A stretch of DNA of 64,000 nt, taken from Sphingobacteriia bacterium. Lineage in GTDB: Bacteria > Bacteroidota > Bacteroidia > Bacteroidales > UBA7960. The stretch spans positions 1 to 64,000 of the forward strand of contig JAABRR010000004.1 of the NCBI GenBank assembly GCA_011390785.1, written 5' to 3'. Positions 2,819 to 28,437 of this stretch are shown piece after piece; the stretch's first letter is position 1; each line of letters opens with the position of its first letter. The translations under genes and the position numbers were made by a program. The notes under the pieces are model-generated. The model made no database searches, was not told where the DNA came from, and saw nothing but the letters and a program-made list of their open reading frames with translations.

Positions 2819-3116
2819 ATTTGGTGTTTTGATTAGATTTTATGATTATTTGCAATCTTGCCATTATATAAAATGGGGCTAAAGCCCTCAGTAGTTTTAG
2901 AGCCTTCAAATCGGAATTTTAGGACAAACAGATAAATTATGGCATGTTCTTGATTTGTTAAGTGGTTGATATTTAGTGTATTTGCGCGGAGTTGCACTAT
3001 TTACCCAAAAAAAAGATTGAATTGTCATACACAACCAGACAGGTTAGCAATACATTTGATACCATAAAACTATAAAAGCGAAAACAATCACATAATATTT
3101 TAATTTGTTGTATTCA
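2819..3116 (+). other. Intergenic stretch with a small palindrome
   Basis: About 300 bases between the two GH30 genes with no convincing coding frame. It holds a 12-base palindrome (GGGCTAAAGCCC, 2876-2887), a form often dispersed in Bacteroidota genomes, and an A-run at 3007-3014. It may contain the promoter of the second GH30 gene, but I could not find a convincing -33/-7 pair. Confidence 0.5.
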
Positions 3117-5297
3117 ATGCGAAAAAAATCATACTTTCTCAAAATATCAGTCCTTTTCCTTCTTTTGTTGTTTATTTTTTCTTCTCAGGATAGCAAAGGA
3201 CAGCCTACACTTATCGATCCCAATATGAAGTACCAGGAGTTTGAAGGTTGGGGAGGTTCTTTATGTTGGTGGGCCAATATAATGGGTGGATACAGCGATA
3301 CAGATGTGAAAAAGATTTGCGATTGGATTACCGATCCGATGGGGACTAACATGAATATTTTCCGCTTTAACATTGGTGGTGGAGATGATCCTACCCACGA
3401 TCATATGCGCTCTGATGGAGGAGCTATGCCAGGTTACAAAGCATCGGCAGATGCACCCTTTGACTGGACACAGGACGAAAACCAGCGCAGAATTGTATTG
3501 CAGCTTATTGAGTCGAGGATAGCCCAAACCGGGCAAAATGATATCATTCTTGAAGCATTTGCCAATTCACCCCCCTACTGGATGACCAAAAGTGGTTGCT
3601 CTGCAGGCAATTTCATTGGCGGAGAAAGCAACCTTCAGGATGATATGTATGATGACTTTGCCGATTACCTTACCGAAGTGGTTAAATATTACCATGATAG
3701 TTTGGGTGTTACCTTTCACACCATCGATCCGTTTAATGAACCCTTTTCTACCTGGTGGGTTGCCTTTGGCGGCCAGGAGGGCTGCTATTTCGGACAATCC
3801 GATCAGGAAAAAATGATCAGGGAGTTATATGCCAAACTGCAGGAAAAAGATATGCTCGGCTATACAGGTATTTCTGCCATGGATGCCAATTCCCTCGATG
3901 AAACCTATAATGGTGTGGTAGGGTATAAACAGGCCGGCGATATATTGCCAAAGCTTTCGAACATCACAACCCACAGCTATTTTGGAAGTGCCAATTCACG
4001 AAAAAACCTGGCCCGATGGTGCCACGAAAATGACTTTACCATCTGGCAATCAGAATCGGGTCCGTTGAATATTTCCGGAACCGATCAAGAGCTATTTCTA
4101 ATTATGGCTGCCCGAATCATCAAGGACATTAAGGAGTTGAATGCCATTGCCTGGATTGACTGGCAGCTTGCCGGAAATCAAAGTGCTGTATGGGGGTTGA
4201 TTGTTGGGGAGTATATAAATCCAATTAACCCGGTTTTTAAAGGTGATGGATATTTTTACAGATCCCAGTTTTCCCGCTTCATAAAACCAGGTTATACCAT
4301 TATCGACGCCAAAAATCCTTCAGTGCTGGCAGCTTTAAGTCCTGATGAGACAGAAGCCATCGTGGTGGCGGTAAACGAAACTTCATCTGCCAGAAGTTTT
4401 GAGTTCGATGTAAGTGCTTTTGGGCAAATAGATGGTACTATAGAACGATTCAGAACCCGAGAGGTGAATCCGAGTTTTACCGAAAAAGTATTCAGAACAA
4501 CCAACACAACGGTAGAGAATGATCTGATAATTTACGAAGCACCTGCCTGGTCTGTAACAACCTTTGTTATTCCGGTGCAAATGGCCGAAGAACGCATTGA
4601 ACAGGGCTCTTACTATTTCAAAAACAAGGCTACAGGTCTGTATGCCGGCATTCGTGATGCATCCATGTTTCCGGGTGGAAGGTTGGTATTAACAGGCAAT
4701 GAGCAATCATCCAATGCAATATTTCACATCACTCCGGATATACTTACCGGGGGTGCAAGAATGAAACCCGGTCATCTGAGCGAAACATCACAATTTGTGC
4801 TCGATGTTGAAGGAGCATCTGGTTCTGATGGTGCGCGTATCATCCAGTTCAATGATGCAAACAGTGAAAATCAGAGATTTCATTTTGTGCACCATCAAGA
4901 TAACTATTTTACCATTATGCCCCGAAACAGTATGAAATGCCTTAGCGTTGCACAAAATGCCACGGATGGCGACAATGTGGTGCAGAATACCTGTCAGGAT
5001 AACGATAATTTTTTGTGGGAAATGGTGAATTTAAACACTTCGGTAGAAAACAGGCTTTCAAAACCCACCACTTTGGCTTTAAAGTTTAAAAACAATCATT
5101 TGAAGATTTTTTCAAACCAGAGTAAAATCATTAAGGAAATTCGTGTGCATTCATCAGCAGGCGAGATGGTGCATTACAAAACTGATTTACATCTATATGA
5201 ATACAGCATCCCTTTAAGGATTGTACAAGGATATTATATTGTTTCAGTAACTTATCATGATGGCACAATAGCCAGTGAACGATTTGTTGCTATTTAA
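3117..5297 (+). CDS. GH30 glycosidase with ricin-type lectin domain and T9SS sorting tail
   Basis: A 726-residue exported enzyme. ATG 3117 is preferred over an upstream TTG at 3105 because it opens straight into a signal peptide (MRKKSYFLKISVLFLLLLF). The GH30 barrel and side domain span residues about 30-485: QEFEGWGGSLCWW at the N-terminus, acid/base E208 in DPFNEPFSTWW, nucleophile E313 in WQSESGPLN. Residues about 490-645 form a ricin B/CBM13-like beta-trefoil (KNKATGLYAGIRD, LDVEGASGSDGARIIQF, MKCLSVAQNATDGDNV). The last 75 or so residues look like a type IX secretion C-terminal domain. This implies release to, or attachment at, the cell surface. The enzyme differs clearly from the neighbouring GH30 and probably attacks another linkage of the same glycan. 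Family certain, substrate inferred. Confidence 0.9.
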   Translation: MRKKSYFLKISVLFLLLLFIFSSQDSKGQPTLIDPNMKYQEFEGWGGSLCWWANIMGGYSDTDVKKICDWITDPMGTNMNIFRFNIGGGDDPTHDHMRSDGGAMPGYKASADAPFDWTQDENQRRIVLQLIESRIAQTGQNDIILEAFANSPPYWMTKSGCSAGNFIGGESNLQDDMYDDFADYLTEVVKYYHDSLGVTFHTIDPFNEPFSTWWVAFGGQEGCYFGQSDQEKMIRELYAKLQEKDMLGYTGISAMDANSLDETYNGVVGYKQAGDILPKLSNITTHSYFGSANSRKNLARWCHENDFTIWQSESGPLNISGTDQELFLIMAARIIKDIKELNAIAWIDWQLAGNQSAVWGLIVGEYINPINPVFKGDGYFYRSQFSRFIKPGYTIIDAKNPSVLAALSPDETEAIVVAVNETSSARSFEFDVSAFGQIDGTIERFRTREVNPSFTEKVFRTTNTTVENDLIIYEAPAWSVTTFVIPVQMAEERIEQGSYYFKNKATGLYAGIRDASMFPGGRLVLTGNEQSSNAIFHITPDILTGGARMKPGHLSETSQFVLDVEGASGSDGARIIQFNDANSENQRFHFVHHQDNYFTIMPRNSMKCLSVAQNATDGDNVVQNTCQDNDNFLWEMVNLNTSVENRLSKPTTLALKFKNNHLKIFSNQSKIIKEIRVHSSAGEMVHYKTDLHLYEYSIPLRIVQGYYIVSVTYHDGTIASERFVAI

Positions 5298-5361: not shown

Positions 5362-6789
5362 ATGAAAAAACTTTTTACTGTATTATTAATCTCATTTGGA
5401 TTTCTGTTTACCACCCAGGCACAGGAACCTACGGAAACTCTTCTTCTAACCGGGGAAACATCACCCGAACTCATTACTTATTATGACTTTGTTGAATGGG
5501 CAATTGATGAGGGAAAAATGGCCGATTGGTACGTTGATTTTGGTACCCAGGAATATGCTATATGGACTGATAATCCTGAGATGGAGGGAATAAATCCTAC
5601 AGAAAAGGCCCTGTTTATGGAAACCATAGCGGGCCCCGACTGGTGGGGTAACTTCTTTAATTTCAGGTTAGAAACTCCTATTAGCATTACAGAGGAAAAC
5701 CGCTATCTCCATATTTTCCATTACAGGGAAAACCTGAATAATGGCTGGAGCTTTAGTCTTAACAATGACACTCCCCTTGAAGACCCGGATCAGGGCACTT
5801 TGCGTTTTGATGGAAACAATTCATTGCCCGGCCGTTGGGAAGACATCGTTATTGACCTCGGGTATCTTATGGACAATGAAATTGCGCTTGAAAAATTTAT
5901 GGTTATTGTTGATAAAGACTGGGATGGCCCCAGAGACAACCCGCCAACAAAATACTATTTCGATGAAATCGCCCTTACCAACGATCCATTTCCACGTGGC
6001 GTTGAGTTTCTTACCGGAACCGATCTGTTAAGCTTTGATAGCGAAGATCAGTTGGCTGAGCTTATAATTGACACCCAGAACGAATTAAATACATTTGAAG
6101 TGATCGAAAACCCCTTTACAGATAGTGAAGTCATTTCTGATGGTATGGTAGGTCATTTTTACAAGAGTGAGACGGCTTCATGGTGGCAGGGATTGAACGT
6201 TTCATTTCCAGGGATTCATCTTATTGAATACGAAGTAAAACAATACCTTCATGTTTATGTACGGGCAGAAATTGATTGCTTTATTCAATTACATATCGTG
6301 GATAATACTGACACGCATTATACAGAAATGTTTTATTATCCCGGGAGTGAAATTGATGGAGAATGGTTCGACCTTGTTTGGGATTTAAGTAGCTATACAG
6401 CCGTTAAAGCCATGACAGTCCGATTTGATGTGCAGGTGGATGAAAATGGTGATTATATCAATGGAACCCCTGCCGGTGATTTCTGGGTTGATGGCATTGT
6501 TCTCGACGATAACCCCTATGAAAGAGAAGGAACTGTTAATGTTGACGATTTAGTTAATGCCCAACCCACTCTTAGAGCATGGTCCGGAAATCAAACGATT
6601 AAATTCTCACAGGCCGATGCTTCCTATGCCCAGGTATTTGATATTTTGGGTAGAAGTATTGTTTCAACGCCTTTGGCAACAGGTTCTGATCTGCATACCC
6701 TCAATGTTCCGCAAAATGGACTCTATATTTTAAGAGTTACAAATACTAGCGGAGTTGTTTCTAATGTTAAAGTTTTGGTTAATAGGTAA
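5362..6789 (+). CDS. T9SS-exported protein with one DWWGN module and a second beta-sandwich domain
   Basis: A 475-residue protein starting at ATG 5362 with a clear signal peptide (MKKLFTVLLISFGFLFTTQAQ). Residues about 26-214 form a module not recognised from any named family. Its landmarks are LLLTGETSPELITYYDF, PDWWGNFFNFRLETP, ITEENRYLHIFHYRENLNNGW, TLRFDGN, WEDIVIDL, EKFMVIVDKDWDG and KYYFDEI. The same module occurs three times in the - strand protein at 25610-28378. Residues about 215-390 are a second, related-looking beta-rich domain (SWWQGLNVSF, YLHVYVRAE, WFDLVWDLSSY, DFWVDGIVLDDNPYE). The C-terminal ~75 residues are a T9SS sorting domain (FDILGRSIVSTPL, NGLYILRV). No catalytic residues are evident, so it is probably a surface glycan-binding protein. 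It sits between the GH30 genes and the SusCD block. Confidence 0.82.
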   Translation: MKKLFTVLLISFGFLFTTQAQEPTETLLLTGETSPELITYYDFVEWAIDEGKMADWYVDFGTQEYAIWTDNPEMEGINPTEKALFMETIAGPDWWGNFFNFRLETPISITEENRYLHIFHYRENLNNGWSFSLNNDTPLEDPDQGTLRFDGNNSLPGRWEDIVIDLGYLMDNEIALEKFMVIVDKDWDGPRDNPPTKYYFDEIALTNDPFPRGVEFLTGTDLLSFDSEDQLAELIIDTQNELNTFEVIENPFTDSEVISDGMVGHFYKSETASWWQGLNVSFPGIHLIEYEVKQYLHVYVRAEIDCFIQLHIVDNTDTHYTEMFYYPGSEIDGEWFDLVWDLSSYTAVKAMTVRFDVQVDENGDYINGTPAGDFWVDGIVLDDNPYEREGTVNVDDLVNAQPTLRAWSGNQTIKFSQADASYAQVFDILGRSIVSTPLATGSDLHTLNVPQNGLYILRVTNTSGVVSNVKVLVNR

Positions 6790-6808
6790 TTGATTGAACG
6801 AGAGGCTA

Positions 6809-6848
6809 AAGAGGCTGCCTTAACAACACAATTCTTTGGCAGCTTCTT
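6809..6848 (+). terminator. Hairpin downstream of the DWWGN-module gene
   Basis: An 11-bp imperfect stem (AAGAGGCTGCC at 6809-6819 against GGCAGCTTCTT at 6838-6848, one G/T wobble) begins 20 bases after the stop codon. No long T-run follows, so it may be an attenuating or mRNA-stabilising hairpin rather than a strict rho-independent terminator. Confidence 0.4.
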
Positions 6849-6934
6849 AATGCCTTTTGGTTGGCTCAAATGCAAGTTACCTTATTGTTACTCGCTGGCT
6901 TAAAAAGCGAAAATACACTAAATAAAAAAATCTG

Positions 6935-7333
6935 ATGATTTCTCCAGTTTTTAAATTTCTGCCGGTTTTTTTGATTCTGATGGCATTTTCCGGCTGTGCT
7001 AAGGAAGATGATGATACTACCGAAATCCAATTACTGGGTTTATGGGAGTTAGATTCTAAAACCGTTAATGGTACATCCGTTTCATTGAGTGATTGCGAAA
7101 AGCAAAGCTCCATAAATCTTCAGGAATTTAATTTATGTGTTCTTTATGATGGCTGCACTGAAACCAGCCAGAATTCAGGATGGAGCTACAACCATGAAAT
7201 GCTCAATATTGCCTTGCATCTCCCTGCTGCCTATTATATAGATGAGTTAACCGATCAAAATCTGGTTATTAGCCGGCAGGATATTACAGACCAGGGCCAG
7301 TTGGAGGTTACTGTTCTTTCGTATAGTAAATAA
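6935..7333 (+). CDS. Small lipocalin-like lipoprotein
   Basis: A 132-residue protein starting at ATG 6935. It has a lipoprotein signal peptide with lipobox near residue 21 (LMAFSGC). The mature part is short and beta-rich. GLWELDSKTVNGTSVSLSDCE, the central Cys pair region (LCVLYDGC) and WSYNHEMLNIAL follow the pattern of lipocalin-like domains found in many small Bacteroidota lipoproteins. The gene directly downstream encodes a protein with the same order of landmarks, so the two look like a tandem duplication that has diverged strongly. It is the first gene of a tightly spaced + strand run leading into SusC1. It may be an auxiliary surface or periplasmic binding protein; no enzymatic motif is visible and the function is unknown. 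Confidence 0.72.
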   Translation: MISPVFKFLPVFLILMAFSGCAKEDDDTTEIQLLGLWELDSKTVNGTSVSLSDCEKQSSINLQEFNLCVLYDGCTETSQNSGWSYNHEMLNIALHLPAAYYIDELTDQNLVISRQDITDQGQLEVTVLSYSK

Positions 7334-7367
7334 AATTAACAGTACTGACATTCCAAAACACAAACCT

Positions 7368-7883
7368 ATGAACAAGAAATTTTCTGTTTTTCTGATCTTT
7401 TTGTTTGCCCTTTTTAGTAGTTGCGAAAAAGAAACAGAGAATCCCTATATCGGATTATTGCCTGGATTTTGGACACAAACATCCATTACTATTGATGGGG
7501 TAAACCAAAGCCTTACACCCTGTGAGCTAAGCACCCGCCTACTTATTGAGCAAAATGGGATATACAGGCTTTACAGCTCATGCGATGAGGTTCAAAGACC
7601 CGGAACCTGGCTCATTTCAGATGATGATATGCTTGATCTTTCGATGGATCGTCGCAACGGAGACAGCTACTATTCCTTTCCGGTTCGTTTTACCATTCTC
7701 GAATTATCATCCAATACCCTGGAAATTAGGATAAAGACCTACGTGGGTGAAAGGAAGAAAACGGTAATGTTTACACCGCTGCCACCCGACGACACATCTG
7801 AAATGACAGATGAAGAACGATTTGCACTTGATCAGGAGAATAAAACCATCCAAACTTACATTTACAGGTTTACAAAAAATTAA
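7368..7883 (+). CDS. Small lipocalin-like lipoprotein, paralogue of the preceding gene
   Basis: A 171-residue lipoprotein (MNKKFSVFLIFLFALFSSC, lipidated Cys at 19). The pattern GLLPGFWTQTSITIDGVNQSL, TPCELSTRLLIE, YRLYSSC, TWLISDDDMLDLSM matches the preceding protein in order and spacing, including Cys residues after the first strand and at the hairpin. A longer acidic C-terminal part (PPDDTSEMTDEERFALDQ) has no counterpart there. The stop is 7 bases upstream of the SusC1 start, so it is almost certainly cotranscribed with the transporter. That placement suggests a role tied to the outer-membrane glycan importer, but nothing in the sequence shows what it binds. Confidence 0.72.
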   Translation: MNKKFSVFLIFLFALFSSCEKETENPYIGLLPGFWTQTSITIDGVNQSLTPCELSTRLLIEQNGIYRLYSSCDEVQRPGTWLISDDDMLDLSMDRRNGDSYYSFPVRFTILELSSNTLEIRIKTYVGERKKTVMFTPLPPDDTSEMTDEERFALDQENKTIQTYIYRFTKN

Positions 7884-7890
7884 CTGACAA

Positions 7891-10800
7891 ATGATCTATA
7901 TTCCAACATACCGTTTTACATCCCTGCCCGCCCTATACCGGTATATGGTTTTGGGTATTGTAGCCATTTTTCTGTCGTTAAACAGCTTTGCACAAGGACA
8001 AACTGTAACAGGTCAGGTTACTGACGATAAAACCGGTGAAACCCTTGTGGGTGTTAGTGTATTCATAAAAGGTACTACGTCGGGCACCACAACCGGAATT
8101 GACGGGTCTTACACCCTAAATGTTTCCAGCCAGGATGCTGTGCTGGTTTTTTCGTATATCGGATTCCGTACACAGGAGTTTGAAGTGGGAGAGAGAAGTG
8201 TAATCAATGTTGCCCTGATTGATGAAAACACCATGCTCAGTGAAGTAGTGGTGGTAGGGTATGGTTTGCAACGGAAAGAATCTGTAGTGGGTTCTATATC
8301 GAGTATCGACAATAAAACCATTGTTTCTCTGCCGGTTTCAAATATGACACAGGCGCTGGCCGGAAAGTTGTCGGGTGTGCAGGTTGTGCAACCATCAGGA
8401 GAAATTGGTCTTGATGAAGCAGAAATCTTCATCCGTGGCCAGGCAACATACGGCGATGCTAAACCCCTAATTGTTGTAGATGGTATAATCCGCGATGGTT
8501 TTGCGCAGATCGATCCCAACGAAGTGGCTTCCATCAACATCCTTAAAGATGCATCGGCTACTGCTGTGTATGGTGTTAAAGGTGCAAACGGAGTAATCAT
8601 TGTTACTACCCGCCGCGGTGAATTGGGCAAACCTGTCATATCTTTTACCACCCAAACGGCCATGACCATGCCCACCAGAATTCCGCGCCCCCTTGATTCT
8701 TACCGATCGGCTCTGCTTTCCAACCTGCATAAAATGGGAGGAGAATGGTCGGCACCAACTTATAATAACCAGGACATGATGTATTACAGAACCGGTGCAT
8801 CACCCTATACCAATCCTGATTATGTGTGGACAGATGTAATGATCAAGGACCAATCAACACTTTCTCAGTATAATCTTAATGTAAGTGGGGGTACCAATAC
8901 CGTTAAATACTTTATTTCGGGCGGGTTTCTTACCCAGGATGGATTTTATAATTACGATCCTTACACCAACTTCTCCCGTGCAAACTTTCGCTCAAATTTT
9001 GATATTGATGTAACCGAAGATTTTGCAGCAGCTATTAGTTTGGGCACACGCATCGAAGAAAGAACTTATCCTTCAGCAGCCTGGTATGGCAGCTGGGAAA
9101 TCTACAGGGCATCTTTTGCCGAATCAGGCAGAGACCTGCCCGTATTTAATCCTGATGGATCATTGGCCGGTAATAATAGTTTCCCCAACCTGATTGGCAG
9201 GGTTCGTGACCAGGGCTTTTATTCCGGTAAGAACAGCATTCTTGAAATGAGTGTAAACCTTAATCACAAACTCAATTTCATTACTGAGGGGCTTTCGGTT
9301 AAAGGCCAGCTGGCTTTCGATGATAACGGGGCTATGGAGAAAAACTATCAATCTACAACGGTAGTGTATCAATATGATCCCTTTAACAATACCTATACTG
9401 AATTTGGCCAAAACACTCCGTTGGGTTATGCCTGGGGCAACGTATATAACACCCGTAAAGTGTATTACGAATTCAGCCTAAATTATGCACGCGATTTTGG
9501 CCAGCATAATGTTACAGGTTTGCTTCTGGCCAATCGCGACCTGAGATTCGTAAATGAGTTCATACCCTATGCTACAGAAGGCATTGTAGGACGTATTACG
9601 TATGATTATGGCAGAAGATTTCTGGGTGAAGTAAATGTGGGCTACAACGGCTCTGAGAACTTTGCACCGGGCAACAGATACGGACTTTTCCCTGCTTTTG
9701 CATTGGGATGGAATATTATTAATGAACCTGCTCTTCAAAACACCGCGTTTACAAATCTTTTTTCAAGGTTTCGCCTTAGAGGGTCCATGGGATGGGTTGG
9801 TAACGACAGGATAGGGGAACAAAGATTTATATACCTGCAGCAATATGAAGAAGCCGGAGGTGCTTTGTTTGGCACCGGCGATAACTGGTTTCAGGGAATA
9901 AGACAGGGAACCATTGCCAATACCATGGTGCAGTGGGAAGTGGCCCGTAAACAAAACATAGGTCTTGAAACCGAGATTGCTGACGGGCTTCTGGGTATCA
10001 ACATAGATTTATTTTACGAAAACAGAGATAATATTCTGACCACCATTGCCAACACCAGGCCCGATTATGTGGGTGCCGAATTTAGTGCCGCCAATGTGGG
10101 GATTGTTGAAAACCGGGGTATGGAAGCCGAATTGAGCCACAATAACCGAATTAATAGCAACTTCTCCTATAATATCAGGGGCAATTTCTCATTTGCCCGC
10201 AATAAAATCATTCGAAGAGACGACGCTTTTATGACTCTCGATTATCAAAAACAAGAAGGCTATCCAATTGGAACACCCCTGGTATATCTGGTTGATGGAA
10301 TTTTTCAGAATTATGAAGATATTTATAATAGTCCACCGCAAATTTCACAACTTGGCGGCATTGCCGGAAATAACATTGTTTATCCTGGCGATTTGCGCTA
10401 TGTCGATGTTAATCAAGATGGAGTAATAAACCGGTTCGACCAGGTAAGGATGGGTTATCCGTATATTCCAGAAATCACTTACGGTTTAAATTTTGGTTTT
10501 GTATATAAAGGGTTAGATGTTAGTGCTATGTTTCAGGGGGCTGCAAGGGCTTCTTTCAACAAGAACTGGGAGATTATGTGGCACTTCTCAAACAATAAAA
10601 ATGTTTTTGACAAACACTGGGAATACTGGACACCTGAAACAGCAGGTTCTGAAGAATACATTAGGCTTCATGGTCAATACCAGAACAACGAAGCAGGAAG
10701 CACATACAGCCGGGGTTCGGGAGATTATCTAAGGCTCAAATTTATGGAAGTAGGCTATACCCTTTCAGGCTCTTTGTCAGAAAGACTCAGAATTTCTTCA

Positions 10801-10938
10801 CTGAGAATTTATCTTTCAGGGGTGAACTTATTCCTTTGGGCAAAGGAACCTTCCCTCGATCCAGACAATAGAAATCAACGGGGTGGCTTAATGCCTCCTT
10901 CAAAATCTTACAATATTGGGTTGAATCTTAATATCTGA
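7891..10938 (+). CDS. SusC-type TonB-dependent outer-membrane transporter (pair 1)
   Basis: A 1015-residue SusC/RagA family protein. After the signal peptide (cleavage near NSFAQG) it has a carboxypeptidase-regulatory-like domain (residues about 37-115: VTGQVTDDKTGETLVGVSVFIKGT). The TonB-box-like segment LSEVVVVGYG follows, then the plug domain (SVVGSISSID to VIIVTTRRGE, about 130-240) and a long 22-strand beta-barrel ending in a typical C-terminal strand (SYNIGLNLNI). It imports oligosaccharides through the outer membrane using TonB/ExbBD energy, with its SusD partner forming the lid. The susD gene starts 13 bases downstream. A second, distinct SusC/SusD pair follows at once, so this locus handles either two glycan products or one heterogeneous glycan. 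Confidence 0.96.
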   Translation: MIYIPTYRFTSLPALYRYMVLGIVAIFLSLNSFAQGQTVTGQVTDDKTGETLVGVSVFIKGTTSGTTTGIDGSYTLNVSSQDAVLVFSYIGFRTQEFEVGERSVINVALIDENTMLSEVVVVGYGLQRKESVVGSISSIDNKTIVSLPVSNMTQALAGKLSGVQVVQPSGEIGLDEAEIFIRGQATYGDAKPLIVVDGIIRDGFAQIDPNEVASINILKDASATAVYGVKGANGVIIVTTRRGELGKPVISFTTQTAMTMPTRIPRPLDSYRSALLSNLHKMGGEWSAPTYNNQDMMYYRTGASPYTNPDYVWTDVMIKDQSTLSQYNLNVSGGTNTVKYFISGGFLTQDGFYNYDPYTNFSRANFRSNFDIDVTEDFAAAISLGTRIEERTYPSAAWYGSWEIYRASFAESGRDLPVFNPDGSLAGNNSFPNLIGRVRDQGFYSGKNSILEMSVNLNHKLNFITEGLSVKGQLAFDDNGAMEKNYQSTTVVYQYDPFNNTYTEFGQNTPLGYAWGNVYNTRKVYYEFSLNYARDFGQHNVTGLLLANRDLRFVNEFIPYATEGIVGRITYDYGRRFLGEVNVGYNGSENFAPGNRYGLFPAFALGWNIINEPALQNTAFTNLFSRFRLRGSMGWVGNDRIGEQRFIYLQQYEEAGGALFGTGDNWFQGIRQGTIANTMVQWEVARKQNIGLETEIADGLLGINIDLFYENRDNILTTIANTRPDYVGAEFSAANVGIVENRGMEAELSHNNRINSNFSYNIRGNFSFARNKIIRRDDAFMTLDYQKQEGYPIGTPLVYLVDGIFQNYEDIYNSPPQISQLGGIAGNNIVYPGDLRYVDVNQDGVINRFDQVRMGYPYIPEITYGLNFGFVYKGLDVSAMFQGAARASFNKNWEIMWHFSNNKNVFDKHWEYWTPETAGSEEYIRLHGQYQNNEAGSTYSRGSGDYLRLKFMEVGYTLSGSLSERLRISSLRIYLSGVNLFLWAKEPSLDPDNRNQRGGLMPPSKSYNIGLNLNI

Positions 10939-10951
10939 AAATTTTAGCATT

Positions 10952-12628
10952 ATGAAATTCAATATAATTATTACAGCAATACTGCTTTCTCTGCTGCTTA
11001 GCTCATGCGATAAGGATTTTCTTGACCGGGCTCCCGACCTGAATCTGGATGAAGAAAAAGTATTTTCAGTATTTGAGAATGCCCAGAGTTATCATGCCGA
11101 TATTTATGCTCACCTGCAACAGGGATTTAACAGATTAGGTAACTTTCAGCCTGTGCCAATGTCTTCGGCTTCAGACGAGTCTGACTCCTACATGGGTTAT
11201 CATGGTACCCAAACGCTTAATTTTGGTAGCTACGACGGGGTTGATAACCAGATTTACAATTATTATGCAGGCATCAGAAAGGCCAATATATTTCTTTCCA
11301 AACTCGAAGTAATACCTTTTCCCAGCCAGGCGGTACAAAATGCCATGGAAGGGGAGGCTTATTTTCTAAGAGCATTTTACTTTTTCGAAATCATTAAGCG
11401 CTACGGCGGTATGCCCATCATGGATAGGGTGCTGTTGCCCGGCGAAGAATTGATGCTGGAAAGAGATTCGTACAAAGACTGTGTAGATTTTATACTCGCC
11501 GATTGCGAAATTGCCATTGGATTGATGCCAGCTGAACGACCCGATAATGAACTGGGGCGTGCGACCAAAGGGGCTGCCATGGCTTTAAAGGCACGAATGC
11601 TTCTTTATGCTGCCAGTCCGCTCTGGAATCAGCAAATCACCAATACCGATAAGTGGCAATTGGCAGCCGATGCAGCCAAAGCTGTTCTTGATCTTACCGC
11701 CGAAGGTGGAACTACGGTATATGAGCTTTATACTACTGGTAACGGTGCCGATGATTACGAAAGGCTATTCTTTAACAGGCGCAACCAGGGAAACCGGGAA
11801 GTAATTTTCCATCTTCATGCGACTCCGGTAGCTTTTGGTAATGGACAAATTAATGTTTGGGCTCCTAAAGGTGACGGATTTCAGGGCGATGGTGCTGTTG
11901 CGCCCACCCAAAATTTTGTTGATCTTTTTGAGATGAGTAATGGGATGTTAATACACGAACCCGGCTCAGGCTATGATCCCAACAACCCCTACATCAATCG
12001 CGACCCCCGCTTTTACAAAACCATATTGTACAATGGTGCAGTTTGGCAGGGTGTAACAGTTGAAACCTTTGTGAGTCCGGATTTGAGCCCATCAAAAAAT
12101 GGGAAACACAGGCAGAATCTTTCCGAATTTACCAGTACAGGATACTATGTTCGCAAGTATATGCCTGAAGAGGTAAAGTTTGGATCGAATAATACGGCCT
12201 ATCGCAACTGGATTTATTTTCGTTTGGCCGAAATGTATCTCAATTATGCAGAAGCTCTCAATGAAGTTTCTGGCCCTACAACTGAAGTTTATGCAGCTTT
12301 AAATGCGGTTCGTTCCCGGTCGGGGGTAACAGCAATGCCTGCCGGGCTAACCAAAGAACAGATGCGAGAGCGGATTATGAACGAAAGAGCTATAGAACTT
12401 TCCTTTGAAGAACATCGCTGGTGGGATGCACGGCGTTGGAAAAAAGGGGTAGAGTGGTTTGGTACTGAAATGTATGAAATGTATATTGAGAAAAATGATT
12501 CGGGTACACTTACCTATACCGTAAAACCTTTTGAAACACGCATTTACAGAGATTATATGGATTTGTATCCTATTCCCATCTCCGAAATGAATAAAAACCC
12601 CATGTTCCAGCAGAATCCGGGCTGGTAA
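10952..12628 (+). CDS. SusD-type glycan-binding lipoprotein (pair 1)
   Basis: A 558-residue RagB/SusD family protein. The lipoprotein signal ends in LLLSSC (Cys 19), placing it on the outer leaflet. The N-terminal TPR-containing SusD-like region is visible (GEAYFLRAFYFFEIIKRYGGMP, about residues 130-155). The C-terminal family signature is FRLAEMYLNYAEALNE ... MNERAIELSFEEHRWWDARRW ... LYPIPISEMNKNPMFQQNPGW. It forms the lid of the SusC1 barrel and captures glycan at the surface. The coding region is 13 bases from SusC1. Full length, no damage seen. Confidence 0.96.
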   Translation: MKFNIIITAILLSLLLSSCDKDFLDRAPDLNLDEEKVFSVFENAQSYHADIYAHLQQGFNRLGNFQPVPMSSASDESDSYMGYHGTQTLNFGSYDGVDNQIYNYYAGIRKANIFLSKLEVIPFPSQAVQNAMEGEAYFLRAFYFFEIIKRYGGMPIMDRVLLPGEELMLERDSYKDCVDFILADCEIAIGLMPAERPDNELGRATKGAAMALKARMLLYAASPLWNQQITNTDKWQLAADAAKAVLDLTAEGGTTVYELYTTGNGADDYERLFFNRRNQGNREVIFHLHATPVAFGNGQINVWAPKGDGFQGDGAVAPTQNFVDLFEMSNGMLIHEPGSGYDPNNPYINRDPRFYKTILYNGAVWQGVTVETFVSPDLSPSKNGKHRQNLSEFTSTGYYVRKYMPEEVKFGSNNTAYRNWIYFRLAEMYLNYAEALNEVSGPTTEVYAALNAVRSRSGVTAMPAGLTKEQMRERIMNERAIELSFEEHRWWDARRWKKGVEWFGTEMYEMYIEKNDSGTLTYTVKPFETRIYRDYMDLYPIPISEMNKNPMFQQNPGW

Positions 12629-12665: not shown

Positions 12666-15600
12666 ATGCCAGTAATACGAAATCAAGTTAAGTTATTATT
12701 CTACCTGTTTATTGCCCTATTGGCAGGACTGAATATTACAAAAGCCCAGGATGCTGAATACATTGCTGTTGAAGGCATTGTTAACTCCATAGCCGGCGAA
12801 TCCCTGGCCGGAGTTAATGTGTCAATTCCAGAAGATTTTAAATATACTGTTACAGACAGTGTGGGCAAATTTTCTATACAGGCAATGGTTGGCGCAAATA
12901 TCGTTTTTTCAAAAGACGGTTACCTCAATAAATCGCAAAAAGCAGAGTTTGGAATTTCCTACCTTGAAGTTGTTCTTGAACCTGCCGCTAAAAATAAAAT
13001 TGCTGTGGCTTATGGCTACAGGAGCAGGAATGAACTTACTCATGCTGTTTCGTCAATTGGATCAGATAATCTTGAAAGAAGCCCGGTGCCTAACCTGTCT
13101 AATGCAATTGTTGGACGAACCACAGGCATTACAGTGCTCAAAAATGGCGGCGACGAACCAGGGTATGATAATTCCAGTGTATTTGTAAGGGGTATCGGAA
13201 CATTCAGCAATTCCCGGTCGCCACTGGTGCTGGTAGATCATATAGAGCGGGATTTTACCCAGCTCGATGCCATGGAAATTGAATCTTTCTCGGTACTTAA
13301 AGATGCTGCAGCCACTGTGCAATACGGCATAAGGGGTGCCAACGGTGTTATCAGCGTACAAACCAAAAGGGGGTTTGTTGGTAAACCTGAAATCAACTTC
13401 GTTTCTCAGGCTGGGTTTGCACTCCCATCAAGATTACCCGATTACCTGGGAGCTGCAGAGTATGTAAAGTTTTACAATCAGGCCCTTTTAAACGATGGGT
13501 TGCCTTTATCTTCTGATAGCCGCTACGATCCTGCCATGTACGATGGAACCAATGACCCCTATCTTTTTCCGGATGTGGATTGGTATGGTGAGTTTTTGAA
13601 AGACTATACATCACAACAACAACATAAGCTATCTGTTAGAGGAGGTACCCAGTCGGTTCGGTATTTCCTGTTTATGGGCGTTACCCAGCAAAATGGCATT
13701 TACGAATTTGCCGATGTGAATCCACAATATAGCACCAACGCCAATTTTACCCGCTACAATCTGCGTTCAAATATTGATGTGGATGTTACCGAATCGCTGG
13801 AAGTAGCCATTGATATTTCAACCCGCGTTGAGAACCGGCATGTGCCCAATTCCAGTGCCGGGGCAATTTTTGGCACCCTGTCGCAATTGCCACCCAATGC
13901 CATGCCCATCGAAAACCGCAATGGAACACTGGCTGGCACACCAATTTATCGCAACAACCCTTTGGGTATGATTTCCCGCACCGGCTACCGCGATAATTAC
14001 AATCGTATTTTATTCGGAAATGCCGAAGCAACCCAAAAACTGGATAACATTCTTGAAGGACTTTCAGCCAATGTTTTGATCGGCTTGGATGGATCCAACT
14101 TTTATGCTTTGGGTAGAAGTCAGCAATATGCTGTTTACCAGGAGTATATGCAAAACGATTCTGTACTGTACGAACAATATGGCGAAAACAGCGATATCAG
14201 TCTTGATATTCAGAAGTTTGACGATGGGTTTTCTTATATGATCACATCTTTAGGCGGACTCGAATACTTCAATGAATTTGGGAGCAGTACCCTCGGGGGT
14301 GATATAAAGTATATGCAATCGAAGTTTTTTCCCCACGGAAATGATATTGCCTATGCCAACCAGGGAGTTTTTGGTCGAATGACCTATGGTTTCAACAATA
14401 CTTACTTTGCCGAGGTAGGTTTTTCTTACAATGGTTCTGAAAATTTTGCTCCCGGTAACAGGTTCGGGTTTTTCCCTGCCATTTCTGCTGCATGGATTGT
14501 TTCAAATGAAGACTTTATTGCTGATAATGGCGCGGTCAGTTACCTGAAACTTCGCAGTTCACTTGGTAAATCAGGAAACTCTCAACTTGGGCTGGAGAGA
14601 TTTCCTTATGAAGAACGATACTATAGTGGCTGGGGCTACACCTTTGGCACCGGCTACACATCCACACCAGGCTCTTACGAAGGAAGACTGCCCAACTCCG
14701 CCCTGCAGTGGGAAGAAGCCACCATTGCCAACATCGGACTGGATGTTGAACTGTTCAAAAGTTTCTCGCTTAGTATTGATCTGTTTAATGAAAACCGGGA
14801 AAAAATTATTACTACCGGAGCCAACACCATTCCATCAATTTTGGGGCAGAATCCGCCTTATCAGAATAACGGAAGCGTGTTAAATCAGGGAATGGAAACT
14901 ACACTGGGCTATAAAAATTCAAAAAGTAACTGGGGTTACTCTCTGTACGGGAATGTTAGCTATGCTAAAAACAAGATCATCAACATGGATGAAGTGGATG
15001 GATTGCTGGATTATCAGTACATGAAAGGTAAATCTGCTACAGCCATTTGGGGCCTTGAAACCCTGGGATATTTTGCCAGCGAAGAAGAAATTGCCGGCAG
15101 CCCCCAACAATCCTTTGACGCTGTAAAGCCGGGCGATCTGAAATTTAAAGATCAGAATGGCGACAATATCATTGATGCACAAGACAGAATAGTTATAGGT
15201 GATGCCATTCCTTCCTGGAGTTTTGGTTTGCTGGGTTCTGTAAGATATAAGAACTTTGATCTGCATTGGGTAGTAAACGCCATAATTGGACGTACCGTTA
15301 TGCTTACCAACAACAGTATGTGGATATTGCAGGGCAACAATAAAGTTACCAGTTTGGCTTATGGTGCCTGGCAAGAGGGTGTAAATGAGGAAAATGCCAC
15401 CTATCCGCGACTCACCACTTTGAGCAACCAAAATAACTACAATGAGAATGATTTCTGGGCATATAGTGGCGATTTTCTCAGACTTACCAATCTGGAAGTA
15501 GGATATTATCTTCCCCAATCTGTTCTTTCAAGAGTGGGCATTGGCGAAATCAGATTTTTCCTGAATGCCAACAACCTGCTCACCTTTGATTATACAGGCG

Positions 15601-15692
15601 AATTCAATCTTGATCCTGAGGTGCCAAATGCCGGGGTAAGTGGTTATCCTGTTATGCGGGTTTTTAACACTGGTATAAGTATTCAATTCTAA
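12666..15692 (+). CDS. SusC-type TonB-dependent outer-membrane transporter (pair 2)
   Basis: A 1008-residue SusC/RagA protein, clearly divergent from SusC1. It has a signal peptide (MPVIRNQVKLLFYLFIALLAG), a carboxypeptidase-regulatory-like domain (VEGIVNSIAGESLAGVNVSIP, residues about 35-110) and a plug domain (SNAIVGRTTGITVL, VLKDAAATVQYGIRGANGVISVQTKRG). The barrel carries the family motifs SYNGSENFAPGNRFGFFPA and the closing strand VMRVFNTGISIQF. Where SusC1 has the canonical VVVVGYG, this protein has KIAVAYGYRSRNE, a less conserved TonB-box region. The gene follows SusD1 by 37 bases and precedes SusD2 by 15, forming one transcription unit. Its specificity is probably different from pair 1. 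Confidence 0.95.
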   Translation: MPVIRNQVKLLFYLFIALLAGLNITKAQDAEYIAVEGIVNSIAGESLAGVNVSIPEDFKYTVTDSVGKFSIQAMVGANIVFSKDGYLNKSQKAEFGISYLEVVLEPAAKNKIAVAYGYRSRNELTHAVSSIGSDNLERSPVPNLSNAIVGRTTGITVLKNGGDEPGYDNSSVFVRGIGTFSNSRSPLVLVDHIERDFTQLDAMEIESFSVLKDAAATVQYGIRGANGVISVQTKRGFVGKPEINFVSQAGFALPSRLPDYLGAAEYVKFYNQALLNDGLPLSSDSRYDPAMYDGTNDPYLFPDVDWYGEFLKDYTSQQQHKLSVRGGTQSVRYFLFMGVTQQNGIYEFADVNPQYSTNANFTRYNLRSNIDVDVTESLEVAIDISTRVENRHVPNSSAGAIFGTLSQLPPNAMPIENRNGTLAGTPIYRNNPLGMISRTGYRDNYNRILFGNAEATQKLDNILEGLSANVLIGLDGSNFYALGRSQQYAVYQEYMQNDSVLYEQYGENSDISLDIQKFDDGFSYMITSLGGLEYFNEFGSSTLGGDIKYMQSKFFPHGNDIAYANQGVFGRMTYGFNNTYFAEVGFSYNGSENFAPGNRFGFFPAISAAWIVSNEDFIADNGAVSYLKLRSSLGKSGNSQLGLERFPYEERYYSGWGYTFGTGYTSTPGSYEGRLPNSALQWEEATIANIGLDVELFKSFSLSIDLFNENREKIITTGANTIPSILGQNPPYQNNGSVLNQGMETTLGYKNSKSNWGYSLYGNVSYAKNKIINMDEVDGLLDYQYMKGKSATAIWGLETLGYFASEEEIAGSPQQSFDAVKPGDLKFKDQNGDNIIDAQDRIVIGDAIPSWSFGLLGSVRYKNFDLHWVVNAIIGRTVMLTNNSMWILQGNNKVTSLAYGAWQEGVNEENATYPRLTTLSNQNNYNENDFWAYSGDFLRLTNLEVGYYLPQSVLSRVGIGEIRFFLNANNLLTFDYTGEFNLDPEVPNAGVSGYPVMRVFNTGISIQF

Positions 15693-15707: not shown

Positions 15708-17327
15708 ATGAATAAAATTTCATTCTTTATACTTACTGTTTTTGCCGGATTCATTTTCACTGCTTGTGAAGATTATCTTGATAAGGAGGTTGATACCAAT
15801 CTTACCGGGGATGCTGTTTTTGAAGATAAAAATCTTGCCCCCGGATTTCTCTATAATATTTATAATCACCTGTTGCCGGGTTATAACCGCTTCGATGGTG
15901 CCATGCTGGCAGCTGGAAGCGATGAAGCCGTTCATTCCAATTCGGCATCATCCATCCATATGTTTAACAATGGGGCCGTAAATCCTTCTGCCAACCCCGA
16001 TGATATCTGGGATGAAATGTACACCGGCATCAGAAAAACCAATATATTCCTTGAGAAATTAACAACCACAATAGCCGAAACCAATAGTATTCCTGAAAAT
16101 GACAGACCGGTTATGAGAGGAGAAGCATTGTTTTTGCGTGCCATGTTTCATTTCGAATTGGTAAAAAGATACCGCAACATTCCGTATGTTGATCGGGTTC
16201 TAACGGAAGAAACCATCGGAGAAATTGAGCAGTTACCTTTTGATGCTGTGGTGGAAAAGATCGTTAATGATTGCGATTCCGCTTTTGTTTACCTGCCTGT
16301 TTCCTATGACGATGCCAATAAAGGCAGAGCCGTAAGAGCCGCAGCAGCTGCATTAAAATCACGTTTACTGCTATATGCCGCCAGTCCTTTAAACAACCCT
16401 GATAATGACCTGGCCAAGTGGGAGAGAGCTGCCGAAGCTGCTATGTTGTTCCGTGGACAAAGTGGTCCTTCCATTGGTTTGGAAAGTAATTTTGAAAATG
16501 TGTTTAAAAACCCGTATTCCAGAGAAGTAATTCTGGCCACGCAGGCGGTCAACAACAATGCCTTTGAAAGGGCTAATTTTCCGTTAAGTTATGGCGGGTC
16601 AGGTTTTACCAATCCATCGCAGGCGCTTGCCGATGCGTTTGATACCCGTTTGGGAAACACCATTTATACCGATCCCAACTACGACCCTGAAAACCCCTAT
16701 GTTGACCGCGATCCGAGGTTTTATGCCACCATTTTGCATAATGGGGCCGCTTTTAAAGGCCGGCAGATACAAACCTATGAAGGTGGAAGGGATGGATTGC
16801 TTTCAGCTCCAACAGCCACCAAAACAGGTTATTACATCCGGAAGTTTATTGATCCGGCTGTTGATCTCGATTTGGGAACCACTACACGTAAACCCTGGAT
16901 TATTTTTCGTTATTCCGAAGCTTTTCTTAACTATGCCGAAGCCATGAACGAAGCTAACGGACCCACCATTGATGTATATAATGCTGTTTTTGAGCTTCGA
17001 AGGAGAAATTATGTTATTTCGAGCAGGGCACGATATCCGCAAGGAATGAGCCAGGACGAAATGAGAACCCGCCTTAAGCGCGAGCGCATGGCCGAACTGG
17101 CTTTGGAAGAGCATCGTTTTTGGGATTTGCGTAGATGGAAAGATGCCGAAACAGAGCTTAATAAGCCTGTTCAGGGTATGAGAATATTGTTTAATGAAGC
17201 CGACAGCACCTATCAATACAATGTTTTTGCTGTGGAAAACCGCTCTTTCGATCCTAAATTTTATTGGTATCCAATTCCCCTAAAAGAAGAATTGAAAGGC
17301 TATGTGGAACAAAATGCCGGGTGGTAG
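15708..17327 (+). CDS. SusD-type glycan-binding lipoprotein (pair 2)
   Basis: A 539-residue RagB/SusD protein with lipobox (FAGFIFTAC, Cys 20). Family landmarks are present: MRGEALFLRAMFHFELVKRY (about 130-150), FRYSEAFLNYAEAMNEANG, LKRERMAELALEEHRFWDLR and the terminal YWYPIPLKEELKG..NAGW. It is the surface lid of SusC2. Sequence similarity to SusD1 is limited to the family signature, so the two pairs did not arise by a recent duplication. Confidence 0.95.
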   Translation: MNKISFFILTVFAGFIFTACEDYLDKEVDTNLTGDAVFEDKNLAPGFLYNIYNHLLPGYNRFDGAMLAAGSDEAVHSNSASSIHMFNNGAVNPSANPDDIWDEMYTGIRKTNIFLEKLTTTIAETNSIPENDRPVMRGEALFLRAMFHFELVKRYRNIPYVDRVLTEETIGEIEQLPFDAVVEKIVNDCDSAFVYLPVSYDDANKGRAVRAAAAALKSRLLLYAASPLNNPDNDLAKWERAAEAAMLFRGQSGPSIGLESNFENVFKNPYSREVILATQAVNNNAFERANFPLSYGGSGFTNPSQALADAFDTRLGNTIYTDPNYDPENPYVDRDPRFYATILHNGAAFKGRQIQTYEGGRDGLLSAPTATKTGYYIRKFIDPAVDLDLGTTTRKPWIIFRYSEAFLNYAEAMNEANGPTIDVYNAVFELRRRNYVISSRARYPQGMSQDEMRTRLKRERMAELALEEHRFWDLRRWKDAETELNKPVQGMRILFNEADSTYQYNVFAVENRSFDPKFYWYPIPLKEELKGYVEQNAGW

Positions 17328-17437: not shown

Positions 17438-17881
17438 ATGAGAAGTTTTTTGGCAATCATTACGATACTATTGTTTTTTGCTGTTTCCTGCGAAACGCCG
17501 GAAGATATATTAAACAATCTCGATCATCAGGTACCCGAAATCACTTTTACAACAGATACACTTGTAATTGCAGCCGGAGCAAATGCCACGGCAACTGTTA
17601 CAGTTGAAGATGAAGCCGGGATTGATCGTATTGAATTTTCTTATGGCAGTTGGCAGATCAACCAGATATTTAATCTCTCGGAAGAGGGCAGCCCGGATTC
17701 TCATACGCTGAATCTTGAATTTACCATACCTTTGGATGCCGAAACCCAATGGGATGAAACATTGTATTTCAATGATGGGTCATCCATCGTAATTTTGCAG
17801 CAATATCACAAGCTGCTGCTAAATTCATGGGATGTAAACCGAAATATGAATACGGCAATTCTTTATGTGAAAATTGAATAA
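17438..17881 (+). CDS. Small Ig-like lipoprotein between SusD2 and GH43
   Basis: A 147-residue lipoprotein (MRSFLAIITILLFFAVSC, Cys 18). After the lipidated Cys the chain looks like a single immunoglobulin-like beta-sandwich: EITFTTDTLVIAAGANATAT, VTVEDEAGIDRIEFSYG, HTLNLEFTIPLDAETQWDET. In PULs the slot directly after susD commonly holds SusE/SusF or surface glycan-binding proteins, and this protein could be a short version of one, but it is much smaller. No known family is recognised with confidence. The stop codon lies just upstream of the start of the GH43 gene, implying translational coupling. Confidence 0.7.
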   Translation: MRSFLAIITILLFFAVSCETPEDILNNLDHQVPEITFTTDTLVIAAGANATATVTVEDEAGIDRIEFSYGSWQINQIFNLSEEGSPDSHTLNLEFTIPLDAETQWDETLYFNDGSSIVILQQYHKLLLNSWDVNRNMNTAILYVKIE

Positions 17882-25609: not shown

Positions 25610-28378
25610 TCAGTTCTTCACCATTTTATGAATTTCGCGGGTATTGTCTTCACGAACAATGGTAATGATGTAAATACCATTTTCGAATTGTTGTGTCGGT
25701 ATCCTTAAAATTTCTGAATTGCTTACTGTCAGATCAACCACATTTTGTCCGATCAGATTGGTAATCGTTATGCTTTTCATTCCCTGGGTATTGGTAATGA
25801 AAAGTTCTGATGAAAATGGATTGGGATACAGTATGCTGGTTTCCATTTCATTGGTGTCAATTCCAACGGTAGAAGTAAAAGTAACCGTAACGTTTTTGTC
25901 CATATCCATGGTCAATGCAAGGGTATCTTCTGTTGAAGTGATATCGCCACTCCAGGCATCGAACAGCCAGTCGGTATCAGGCACTGCCACAAGGGTTAGT
26001 TCTGTATTAAGATCCACGGTAAGGGCTTCGGTGTAAGCTTCTCCATTCACTTTAACAGATCCATTGCCTACAATGGCAATGTTTAGCGTTGCTGTGGGCA
26101 AGGTGGGTAAAATGCGCGGAACAGAATCATTGCTCAACATGATTTCATCAAAATAGTATTCAGTTGGTGGGTTATCGCGCGGGCCTTCCCAGTCTTTGTC
26201 AACAATAACCATAAATTTTTCCAGGGGTATTGAATTCTCGATCAAATATTGAAGATCCAGAACAATATCCTGCCACTCACCTGGCACAAGGTTATCGCCG
26301 TCAAAACGTGTAATTCCCTGGTCTGCATCACCCAATGGTTCATTTGCGTTTATACTAAAACTCCATCCATTGTTTAGGTTTTCGCGCCAGTGCAAAATAT
26401 GCAGGTAGCGGGTATGTTCTGTGATGTGGATGGGTTCTCCCAACCTGAAGTTGAAAAAATTACCCCACCAATCAGGGCCTGCAATGGTTTTCATGTGCAC
26501 ACTTTTTGCCGAAGCATTACCCGTTTCGGTGTCAGGATTATCGGCAAGGATTGTGTAAGTTCCATCACCAAAGTCGTGGTACCATGCTGGTATTTTCCCA
26601 GCATCGTCAATGGCCCACTCAACAAAATCAAAGTAAACGATGGGTTCGTCAGCTGCATCACCTGTAAGCAATACCAGGTCGCCTGCCACAGGGCTGAAGG
26701 TAACTGTTATATCGGTATTCTGGCTCATTGTAAAAGATGTTGATGCCTCAGCAGATGTAATATCTCCGGTCCATTCTGTGAATTCCCAACCCAGTCCGGC
26801 AACGGCCACGAGATCGACTGTGGTTCCTTCTTCAATGAGCATAGGCTCTACATACAGCATATCGTTTACATGTACTTTACCGCTACCAACGGTGGTAAGT
26901 GTTAATGTAAGGAGATTGGCAGGAATTTCACTAAAGGTGGCGGTGATCGTTTTATCGGCGTCCATGGTAATTGATGCTGCTTCTTCTGTTGATTCGAGGT
27001 CGCCACTCCAGCCATCGAACAACCATCCTGAATCTGCCATGGCTTCCAGGTTAACGGTGGTACCTTCGGCATAGGCAATTGTTTCGGTGTAGGCTACTCC
27101 GTTGGCTTCAATACTTCCGTTTCCAACAACATTAATGGTCAGATCAAAAGTGGCTACATTCCGGGGGTTGGGATCGTTGCTCAATATGATCTCATCAAAA
27201 TAATATTCAGTTGGCACGTTGGCATCATTGTTTCCATCCCAGTTTGTATCTGCAATGATCATGAATTTTTCAAAATCAATTGAGTTGCCAATTAGGTGGT
27301 TAAGGTCTATTACAATGTCTTCCCATACTCCGGCAGTTGTGTTCTGGCCATCGAAACGCAAAGTTCCCTGGTCTGCATCGGTCAAAGGTTCATTGGAATT
27401 GATGCTTACACTCCAGCCATCGGTAAGATTTTCCCGGTAATGGTAAAAATGGAGGTACCTGTTTTCTTCTGTTATGGTGATTGGGGTTTCCAGCCTGAAG
27501 TTGAGGAAATTGCCCCACCAGTTGGGTGCAGCGATCGTTTTTACAAGCAAGCTGTTCATGCTGGTATTGGCACCATCTGCATCCGGATTTACGGCCCATG
27601 TTACATAATTTCCATCGCCAAAATCGTGATACCAGGCTGGGATCATGTTTACATCATCAATAGTCCATTCGGCAAAATCAGCATAGTTGATCGGTTCAGG
27701 AGGTATTTCTCCTGAAAGCAATAGTGTGCCGCTACCGGCAGTTGTGCGTGGAGTTGGATCATCGCTAAGTACGATCTCATCAAAGTAGTATTTTGTAGGT
27801 GGATTATCACTGTTATCGCCATCCCAGTTTTTGTCAACAATAAGCATAAATTTCTCAAAATCTACTCCGGTAGTGATCAGGTGGTTCAGGTCAATAACAA
27901 TATCTTCCCATACCCCAGCAGTTGTATTGTCACCATCAAAACGGAGATTTCCCTGTGCATCATCGCCAAGGGGTTCGTTGGCATTGATGCTTACACTCCA
28001 GCCATTGGTAAGATTTTCACGGTAATGAAAAATGTGCAGGTAGCGATTCGATTCTGTTATTGTAACCGGGGCTTCAAGTCTGAAATTAAAAAAATTACCC
28101 CACCAGTCGGGAGCCGTTATTGTTTCAATGAGCAAACTTCTATCGGTTTCGTTTATACCATCTGTTGCCGGATTGTTAGCCCAGGCTGTATATCTGCCAC
28201 CTCCAAAATCATGATACCAGGCCGGGATTTTACCGGGGTCATCAATTGTCCATTCTGCAAAATTGTAATAGGTAATGGCTTCTGTAGCCGGCTCACCAGA
28301 CAAAAGGTTTACATCTTGTGTTTTTGCCATAAATCCTGCTAAAAGAAGGATCAGGGGCAGTAGTAGGTTTTTTTTCAT
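25610..28378 (-). CDS. T9SS-exported protein with three DWWGN modules and three InlB-type repeats
   Basis: A 922-residue protein; ATG 28378 is chosen over a GTG three bases upstream and opens a signal peptide (MKKNLLLPLILLLAGFMAKTQ). Order of parts: DWWGN module A (about 24-212), module B (220-408), two divergent InlB B-repeat/Flg_new-like domains (409-571; LFDGWSGDLESTEEAASITMD, EFTEWTGDITSAEASTSFTM), module C (572-760), a third InlB-type repeat (768-840), and a T9SS C-terminal domain (845-922; SILYPNPFSSELFI). Each module repeats WWGNF(F/L)NFRL, RYLH, REN, GWS, RFDG, WEDIVIDL or near forms, EKFM.I.D..W and YYFDEI. Module C is closest to the single copy at 5362-6789 (both EKFMVIVDKDW.GPRDNPPT). 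No catalytic site is evident; a multivalent surface glycan binder is the best guess. Confidence 0.82.
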   Translation of the reverse strand: MKKNLLLPLILLLAGFMAKTQDVNLLSGEPATEAITYYNFAEWTIDDPGKIPAWYHDFGGGRYTAWANNPATDGINETDRSLLIETITAPDWWGNFFNFRLEAPVTITESNRYLHIFHYRENLTNGWSVSINANEPLGDDAQGNLRFDGDNTTAGVWEDIVIDLNHLITTGVDFEKFMLIVDKNWDGDNSDNPPTKYYFDEIVLSDDPTPRTTAGSGTLLLSGEIPPEPINYADFAEWTIDDVNMIPAWYHDFGDGNYVTWAVNPDADGANTSMNSLLVKTIAAPNWWGNFLNFRLETPITITEENRYLHFYHYRENLTDGWSVSINSNEPLTDADQGTLRFDGQNTTAGVWEDIVIDLNHLIGNSIDFEKFMIIADTNWDGNNDANVPTEYYFDEIILSNDPNPRNVATFDLTINVVGNGSIEANGVAYTETIAYAEGTTVNLEAMADSGWLFDGWSGDLESTEEAASITMDADKTITATFSEIPANLLTLTLTTVGSGKVHVNDMLYVEPMLIEEGTTVDLVAVAGLGWEFTEWTGDITSAEASTSFTMSQNTDITVTFSPVAGDLVLLTGDAADEPIVYFDFVEWAIDDAGKIPAWYHDFGDGTYTILADNPDTETGNASAKSVHMKTIAGPDWWGNFFNFRLGEPIHITEHTRYLHILHWRENLNNGWSFSINANEPLGDADQGITRFDGDNLVPGEWQDIVLDLQYLIENSIPLEKFMVIVDKDWEGPRDNPPTEYYFDEIMLSNDSVPRILPTLPTATLNIAIVGNGSVKVNGEAYTEALTVDLNTELTLVAVPDTDWLFDAWSGDITSTEDTLALTMDMDKNVTVTFTSTVGIDTNEMETSILYPNPFSSELFITNTQGMKSITITNLIGQNVVDLTVSNSEILRIPTQQFENGIYIITIVREDNTREIHKMVKN

Positions 28379-28437
28379 CACATTTGAATATTAATTAATA
28401 ATTGATTTGGTAAGAGTGTTTGATTTTTTGCAATTCA

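Follow-up and report, generated by a model that had tools for sequence, protein, structure and literature searches.

A putative T9SS-exported glycan-binding protein with two tandem beta-sandwich modules, encoded between GH30 and SusC/SusD genes in a Bacteroidota genome

We describe here an open reading frame (ORF) at positions 5362 to 6789 (plus strand) of the first 64,000 nucleotides of contig JAABRR010000004.1 (assembly GCA_011390785.1, Sphingobacteriia bacterium), a stretch referred to below as the window. Other loci, genomes, and contigs carry our own L, G, and C numbers, and G000 is the genome of the window. The ORF is real, has an ATG start, and encodes 475 amino acids. Upstream on the same strand lie a GH30 gene (Glyco_hydr_30_2; 1145 to 2818), whose best solved match is 3clw, a "conserved exported protein," and a second GH30 gene with a ricin-type lectin domain (3105 to 5297), whose best solved match is a secreted endo-beta-1,6-galactanase (3.3e-46 over residues 36 to 445). 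Downstream, also on the plus strand, are two lipocalin-like ORFs (6935 to 7333 and 7368 to 7883) with relatives in several of the loci described below, followed by SusC1-like (TonB-dependent importer; 7891 to 10938), SusD1-like (10952 to 12628), SusC2-like (12666 to 15692), and SusD2-like (15708 to 17327) genes. The initial annotation had placed the ORF between GH30 and SusC, which is correct, with the two lipocalin-like ORFs intervening before SusC1. A galactan-type PUL, as also proposed there, is plausible from the best match of the adjacent GH30. Another polymer is possible as the target, since genes of the GH28, GH106, GH43-like, and sulfatase types are also found in the window. The GH106 gene (alpha-L-rhamnosidase family; 28438 to 31674, minus strand) lies beside a second ORF with copies of the module, and a hybrid two-component sensor/regulator (31848 to 36083, plus strand) does not adjoin ORF 5362-6789. 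No GH16 or GH17, as expected of a beta-1,3-glucanase locus, was found among the 30 window proteins scanned.

The encoded protein consists of a signal peptide, two modules, and a type IX secretion system (T9SS) sorting domain. The Sec signal peptide (5362 to 5424, residues about 1 to 21) was read by eye from the sequence, with no lipobox seen. Module 1, of the DWWGN type (5437 to 6003, residues 26 to 214), is supported by module homology, alignment, and a predicted model, and module 2 (6004 to 6537, residues 215 to 392), a diverged copy of the same superfamily, by profile comparison, model, and tree. The type A C-terminal sorting domain (6592 to 6786, residues 411 to 475) scores 32.3 bits with TIGR04183 against a cutoff of 23, and the modelled tail resembles the C-terminal domain of RemA (VIA-align, Z 11.2, 72 residues aligned). 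These matches bear out the T9SS export given in the initial annotation; Pfam Por_Secre_tail (PF18962) stays under its cutoff (18.1 versus 27). Eight homologues align with the protein right through the C-terminal domain.

With Pfam and NCBIfam, the sorting domain is the sole recognised part. Module 1 searched alone against Pfam gave no match at E up to 1, CBM_4_9 included, in agreement with its first description as having no recognised family, and when 30 modules were scanned singly no Pfam family matched more than two of them. All sequence landmarks quoted for module 1 do fall within residues 26 to 214; the gap between EKFM and DKDWDG is three residues rather than the two first given. W69/W70 and several polar residues are near-invariant among 15 module-1 rows of the alignment.

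The protein had been described as a single copy of the module plus a second domain. Residues 215 to 392 are instead a diverged second copy. Compared directly with phmmer, the modules resemble each other weakly (1.3e-5 and 6.9e-6), and the module-1 profile finds module 2 at just 9.2e-4. Modules from genome G086 resemble both copies, with values of 1.7e-11 to 1.1e-17 for module 1 and of 3.5e-12 to 0.003 for module 2, and profile comparison of the module-1 type with the module-2 type gives 98.9% (E 1.2e-17). Because the G086 modules bridge the two copies and the profile comparison agrees, the ORF is read as a tandem pair, and the possibility of two unrelated domains is rejected on the same grounds.

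The module recurs in the window, as first noted. A 923-amino-acid ORF (25610 to 28381, minus strand) contains three DWWGN modules, Flg_new_2 (InlB B-repeat type) domains, and a T9SS sorting domain. Its copies B1 (27743 to 28306), B2 (27155 to 27721), and B3 (26111 to 26671) all lie on the minus strand. The three are 60 to 66% identical to module 1, depending on the alignment used (60, 61, and 65% in the first search; 60, 63, and 66% on the later alignment). This ORF adjoins the GH106 gene and has no SusC/SusD genes alongside. A 30-module profile gave 13 matches in G000, of which five fall in the window and the remaining eight are spread over three further loci. The module protein on contig C9 (L107) lies near SusC/SusD-like ORFs, GH31, and CBM96, and itself scores 20.3 with CBM_4_9, under the cutoff of 25.9. 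Neighbours of the one on C140 (L105) are SusC/SusD-like ORFs, GH3, GH20, and a glycoside phosphorylase, and those of the one on C73 (L106) are a sugar transporter and a GH17 match that falls below threshold. As these surroundings differ, the superfamily seems to be put to several glycans within one cell.

An alignment of six closer modules led to nine loci in other genomes, with L056 read as L019/L020. The recurring gene order is GH30, module protein, lipocalin-like ORFs, SusC1, and SusD1, with SusC2 where the contig extends. For the SusC1/SusD1 count, L108 and L109 were added to the nine loci and the window. The module protein lies upstream of one orthologous SusC1/SusD1 pair in 9 of the 10 loci with enough DNA (the window, L056 read as L020, L057, L058, L060, L061, L063, L108, and L109; SusC1 is split over two ORFs in L058). 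L062 lacks a downstream SusC1/SusD1 pair, and L059 and L064 end too early to count. A GH30 orthologue adjoins the module gene in the window and in eight of the nine loci, although the L058 contig contains just the C-terminal part of the enzyme and the L064 orthologue flanks the module gene on the opposite side. It does not adjoin in L062, nor in L108 and L109, where the module protein is nonetheless beside SusC1/SusD1. In L062, one ORF carries a module upstream of a GH78-type rhamnosidase domain, and a GH106 gene is also present. In L019 and L057 a relative of the regulator adjoins the GH30 gene, in L063 it is one gene away from the GH30, and in L108 and L109 it adjoins the module gene.

In the Paludibacter loci L060, L061, and L064, the GH30 orthologue itself bears an N-terminal module of the superfamily (L060:7578-9755, L061:7424-9658, and L064:6408-7741, the last cut by the contig end). 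These fused enzymes are 54.6, 55.9, and 70.9% identical, respectively, over the aligned catalytic part. Pfam detects no ricin-type domain in the fused GH30s of L060 and L061 and does detect one in the GH30s of the window, L019/L020, and L059. On this enzyme, the module may thus take the place of the lectin domain and vice versa. In L061, a two-module protein (6084 to 7391) is encoded just upstream of the fused GH30.

The modules belong to a wider superfamily. A 12-module profile gave matches in 50 of 395 genomes of the phylum, and ORFs of about 520 to 690 amino acids with two or three tandem modules are frequent among the top hits elsewhere. Compared with the window type, 46 such outside modules scored a probability of 98.6% (E 9e-16), or 98.8% when realigned, across some 143 columns. 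Decoys made from the related alignment, six with shuffled columns and one reversed, stayed at or below 3.2%, which makes chance an unlikely cause of this homology. A relative of the window modules matches PDB entry 8qx6, titled "Novel laminarin-binding CBM X584," by sequence at 8.5e-10. Against PDB sequences, the window protein itself gave nothing of note and the 12-module profile gave only 8qx6 (E 0.2) and 4yu5 (0.21). Since direct searches reached E 0.2 at best, the link to 8qx6 runs through intermediates, which extend over most of the module, and through predicted folds. 8qx6 is probably CBM102 of a Christiangramia forsetii surface glycan-binding protein (SGBP), a module reportedly described by Zuehlke et al. 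in 2024; among the papers listed from the collection searched, none was on CBM102 or 8qx6.

Structure prediction gives a beta-sandwich of carbohydrate-binding type, in line with the jelly roll that had been suggested. The two-module model, built from nine alignment rows, has a mean pLDDT of 73.7 and a pTM of 0.56, and the module-1 model, from 30 rows, a mean pLDDT of 78.6 and a pTM of 0.78. Strands predominate in both models, and parts of each have a pLDDT under 50. With VIA-align, 8qx6 ranks first for the module 2 model (Z 15.3, rmsd 2.2, 141 residues aligned; next 14.0) and first but tied for the module 1 model (Z 12.2, rmsd 2.9, 138 aligned; runners-up 4bq2 and 7t7y at 11.8), so that both predicted modules share its fold. 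Foldseek lists 8qx6 fourth for module 1 (E 2.3e-4), behind 2w91, 1wzx, and 3gdb. For the whole model, the top places go to 4xup, a tandem CBM22, and 7kwb, an SGBP-B of Bacteroides, and 8qx6 is absent from the best 50 matches. The Bacteroides SGBP-B structures 7kwb and 7k44 are likewise all-beta and appear among the Foldseek or VIA-align matches, but they are absent from the PDB sequence searches. CBM4, CBM11, CBM22, and the N-terminal domain of exo-beta-agarase 4bq2 have the same general beta-sandwich (Z 9 to 14 on the predicted models; 9 to 13 for CBM11, CBM22, and other sandwich CBM families), with CBM4 set apart by the lack of a Pfam CBM_4_9 match in module 1. The fold alone says nothing of the ligand.

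The module had been thought possibly new, as it was not known as a named CBM. Module 1 indeed lacks a Pfam family and the beta-sandwich was recovered in the predicted models, but a solved CBM relative exists in 8qx6. For that reason, the window modules are a new branch of a known kind and not an orphan.

The position of this branch was examined in a tree of 163 modules and 164 columns, which is unrooted (the midpoint root serves for drawing only) and in which 8qx6 is a 95-residue fragment; the program warns of long branches in the tree. 8qx6 falls among 114 rows split off at 99/97. Sixteen module-1 rows and one ungrouped row (L068_1378_39) form one side of a branch at 99/85. The module-1 rows, 14 of the 15 module-2 rows, and three GH30-fused rows come together at 94/88, with the GH30-fused modules on the module-2 side (95/82); the module-2 row L061_6084_21 falls elsewhere. 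The window type did not group with 8qx6 among these 163 rows, on a tree that is unrooted and holds 8qx6 as a fragment. A YLH landmark is present in nearly all rows of the module-1, module-2, and fused types, though not in L068_1378_39; some rows close to 8qx6's side share it, so it is no defining mark of the branch.

Locus and export route also separate the window type from 8qx6. Typical SGBPs are outer-membrane lipoproteins encoded with a SusC/SusD pair. The pairing is present here (9 of the 10 loci with enough DNA), and a lipobox pattern was found in none of the module proteins of the nine loci. The tandem-module, SGBP-like proteins of other Bacteroidota share tandem modules of the superfamily with the window protein, and L054, the one whose surroundings were read (PKD match just over the cutoff, 27.7 versus 27), belongs to a Sus-type locus that also encodes SusD, a GH16, and a large protein the size of SusC. 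Yet 14 of 17 ORFs of this other group carry a lipobox, compared with 0 of 9 for the window type. The 17 are those with the N-terminus in view and the FD-[DEN]-I motif, others being left out, and a lipobox-like site in L026 escapes the pattern.

Taken together, the data point to ORF 5362-6789 as probably encoding a T9SS-exported surface glycan-binding protein whose two tandem beta-sandwich CBMs serve a galactan importer. The analysis shows homology, a predicted fold, tandem duplication, a sorting domain, a recurring gene order, and fusion of a related module to the orthologous GH30; sugar binding as such, the final location of the protein, and the ligand are inferred. That the protein carries tandem, CBM-type modules, is exported by T9SS, and is tied to one SusC/SusD importer is well supported by inference. 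The CBM type of the modules is very likely, and an SGBP-like role for the protein is likely. Galactan as the ligand is plausible, with about even chances, and is opposed by the fact that the solved relative 8qx6 binds beta-1,3-glucan. The signal peptide would direct the protein to the periplasm, and the C-terminal domain would let it leave by T9SS, to end up on the cell surface or further out. There the two modules may hold a polymer rich in beta-1,6-galactan, of the type II arabinogalactan type, for cutting by the neighbouring GH30 and import by the SusC1/SusD1 pair, and the protein would do the job of lipoprotein SGBPs elsewhere.

The strongest competing reading keeps this scheme and changes the ligand: the modules may be CBMs for a rhamnose-rich pectin or a sulfated polymer of the rhamnogalacturonan type. 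The GH106 gene adjoining the three-module ORF, the GH78-type fusion with GH106 in L062, and the GH28 and sulfatase genes of the window all fit. Against it, the enzyme neighbour that recurs across loci is GH30 and no rhamnosidase, and rhamnose also caps type II arabinogalactan; we consider this reading possible but rather unlikely. It is improbable that the modules have retained the specificity of 8qx6, as binders of beta-glucan (laminarin-like), and are mere passengers of a galactan locus. Laminarin is indeed the ligand of the one solved relative identified, and other superfamily members lie near GH16 (L054) or the sub-threshold GH17 match of L106, but the window type is on a separate branch of the tree, the 30 window proteins scanned include no GH16 or GH17, and in most loci the module is beside or fused to a galactanase-like GH30. 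Similarly improbable is a role without sugar binding, in which the modules act as spacers or protein-protein contacts for holding the enzyme or the SusC/SusD complex: the fold is common to MAM and other non-sugar domains and sugar binding is a prediction, but the best solved match is a CBM, the W69/W70 pair and its polar companions are near-invariant, and two module-fused GH30s lack a ricin-type domain, as if swapped.

Under the preferred reading of galactan-binding tandem CBMs, the window module is a good candidate for a sugar preference that is new relative to its laminarin-binding relative. To our knowledge, few modules bind the beta-1,6-galactan found in plant and algal arabinogalactans. 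More tentatively, the DWWGN branch might be a new CBM family for beta-1,6-galactan or rhamnosylated arabinogalactan, carried on T9SS proteins that replace the lipoprotein SGBP of a SusC/SusD importer, within a superfamily retargeted to several glycans in one genome. A defined branch with recurring partners would permit a direct test of the retuning of a CBM scaffold from beta-glucan to galactan, and the same system could show whether T9SS-exported proteins can partner a SusC/SusD importer in binding.

The module-1 type is sparsely distributed. A single-protein scan of genome contigs with the window protein found no relative. When 98 genomes were searched with it, nine matched, its own included: G068 and G086 strongly, G074 weakly in the module region (2.2e-5), and most others in the module-2 end or the sorting tail. 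None of 11 other genomes of the window's genus (82 to 98% complete) has a module-1 match, and one of that genus, G010, matches residues 372 to 467 only. The module-1 profile matched 35 of 393 genomes of the order, only G000, G068, G534, and G713 above 80 bits. The locus is thus probably patchy and was perhaps transferred.

Several further ORFs lack Pfam matches. In G086, a 1785-amino-acid ORF (L022:3889-9246) has none at E up to 0.01. In the window, ORFs at 54045 to 55517 (490 amino acids), 42594 to 43190 (198 amino acids), and 17438 to 17881 (147 amino acids) have none at E up to 0.1. A relative of the last also follows SusD2 in L020 (14376 to 14849; 46% identical).
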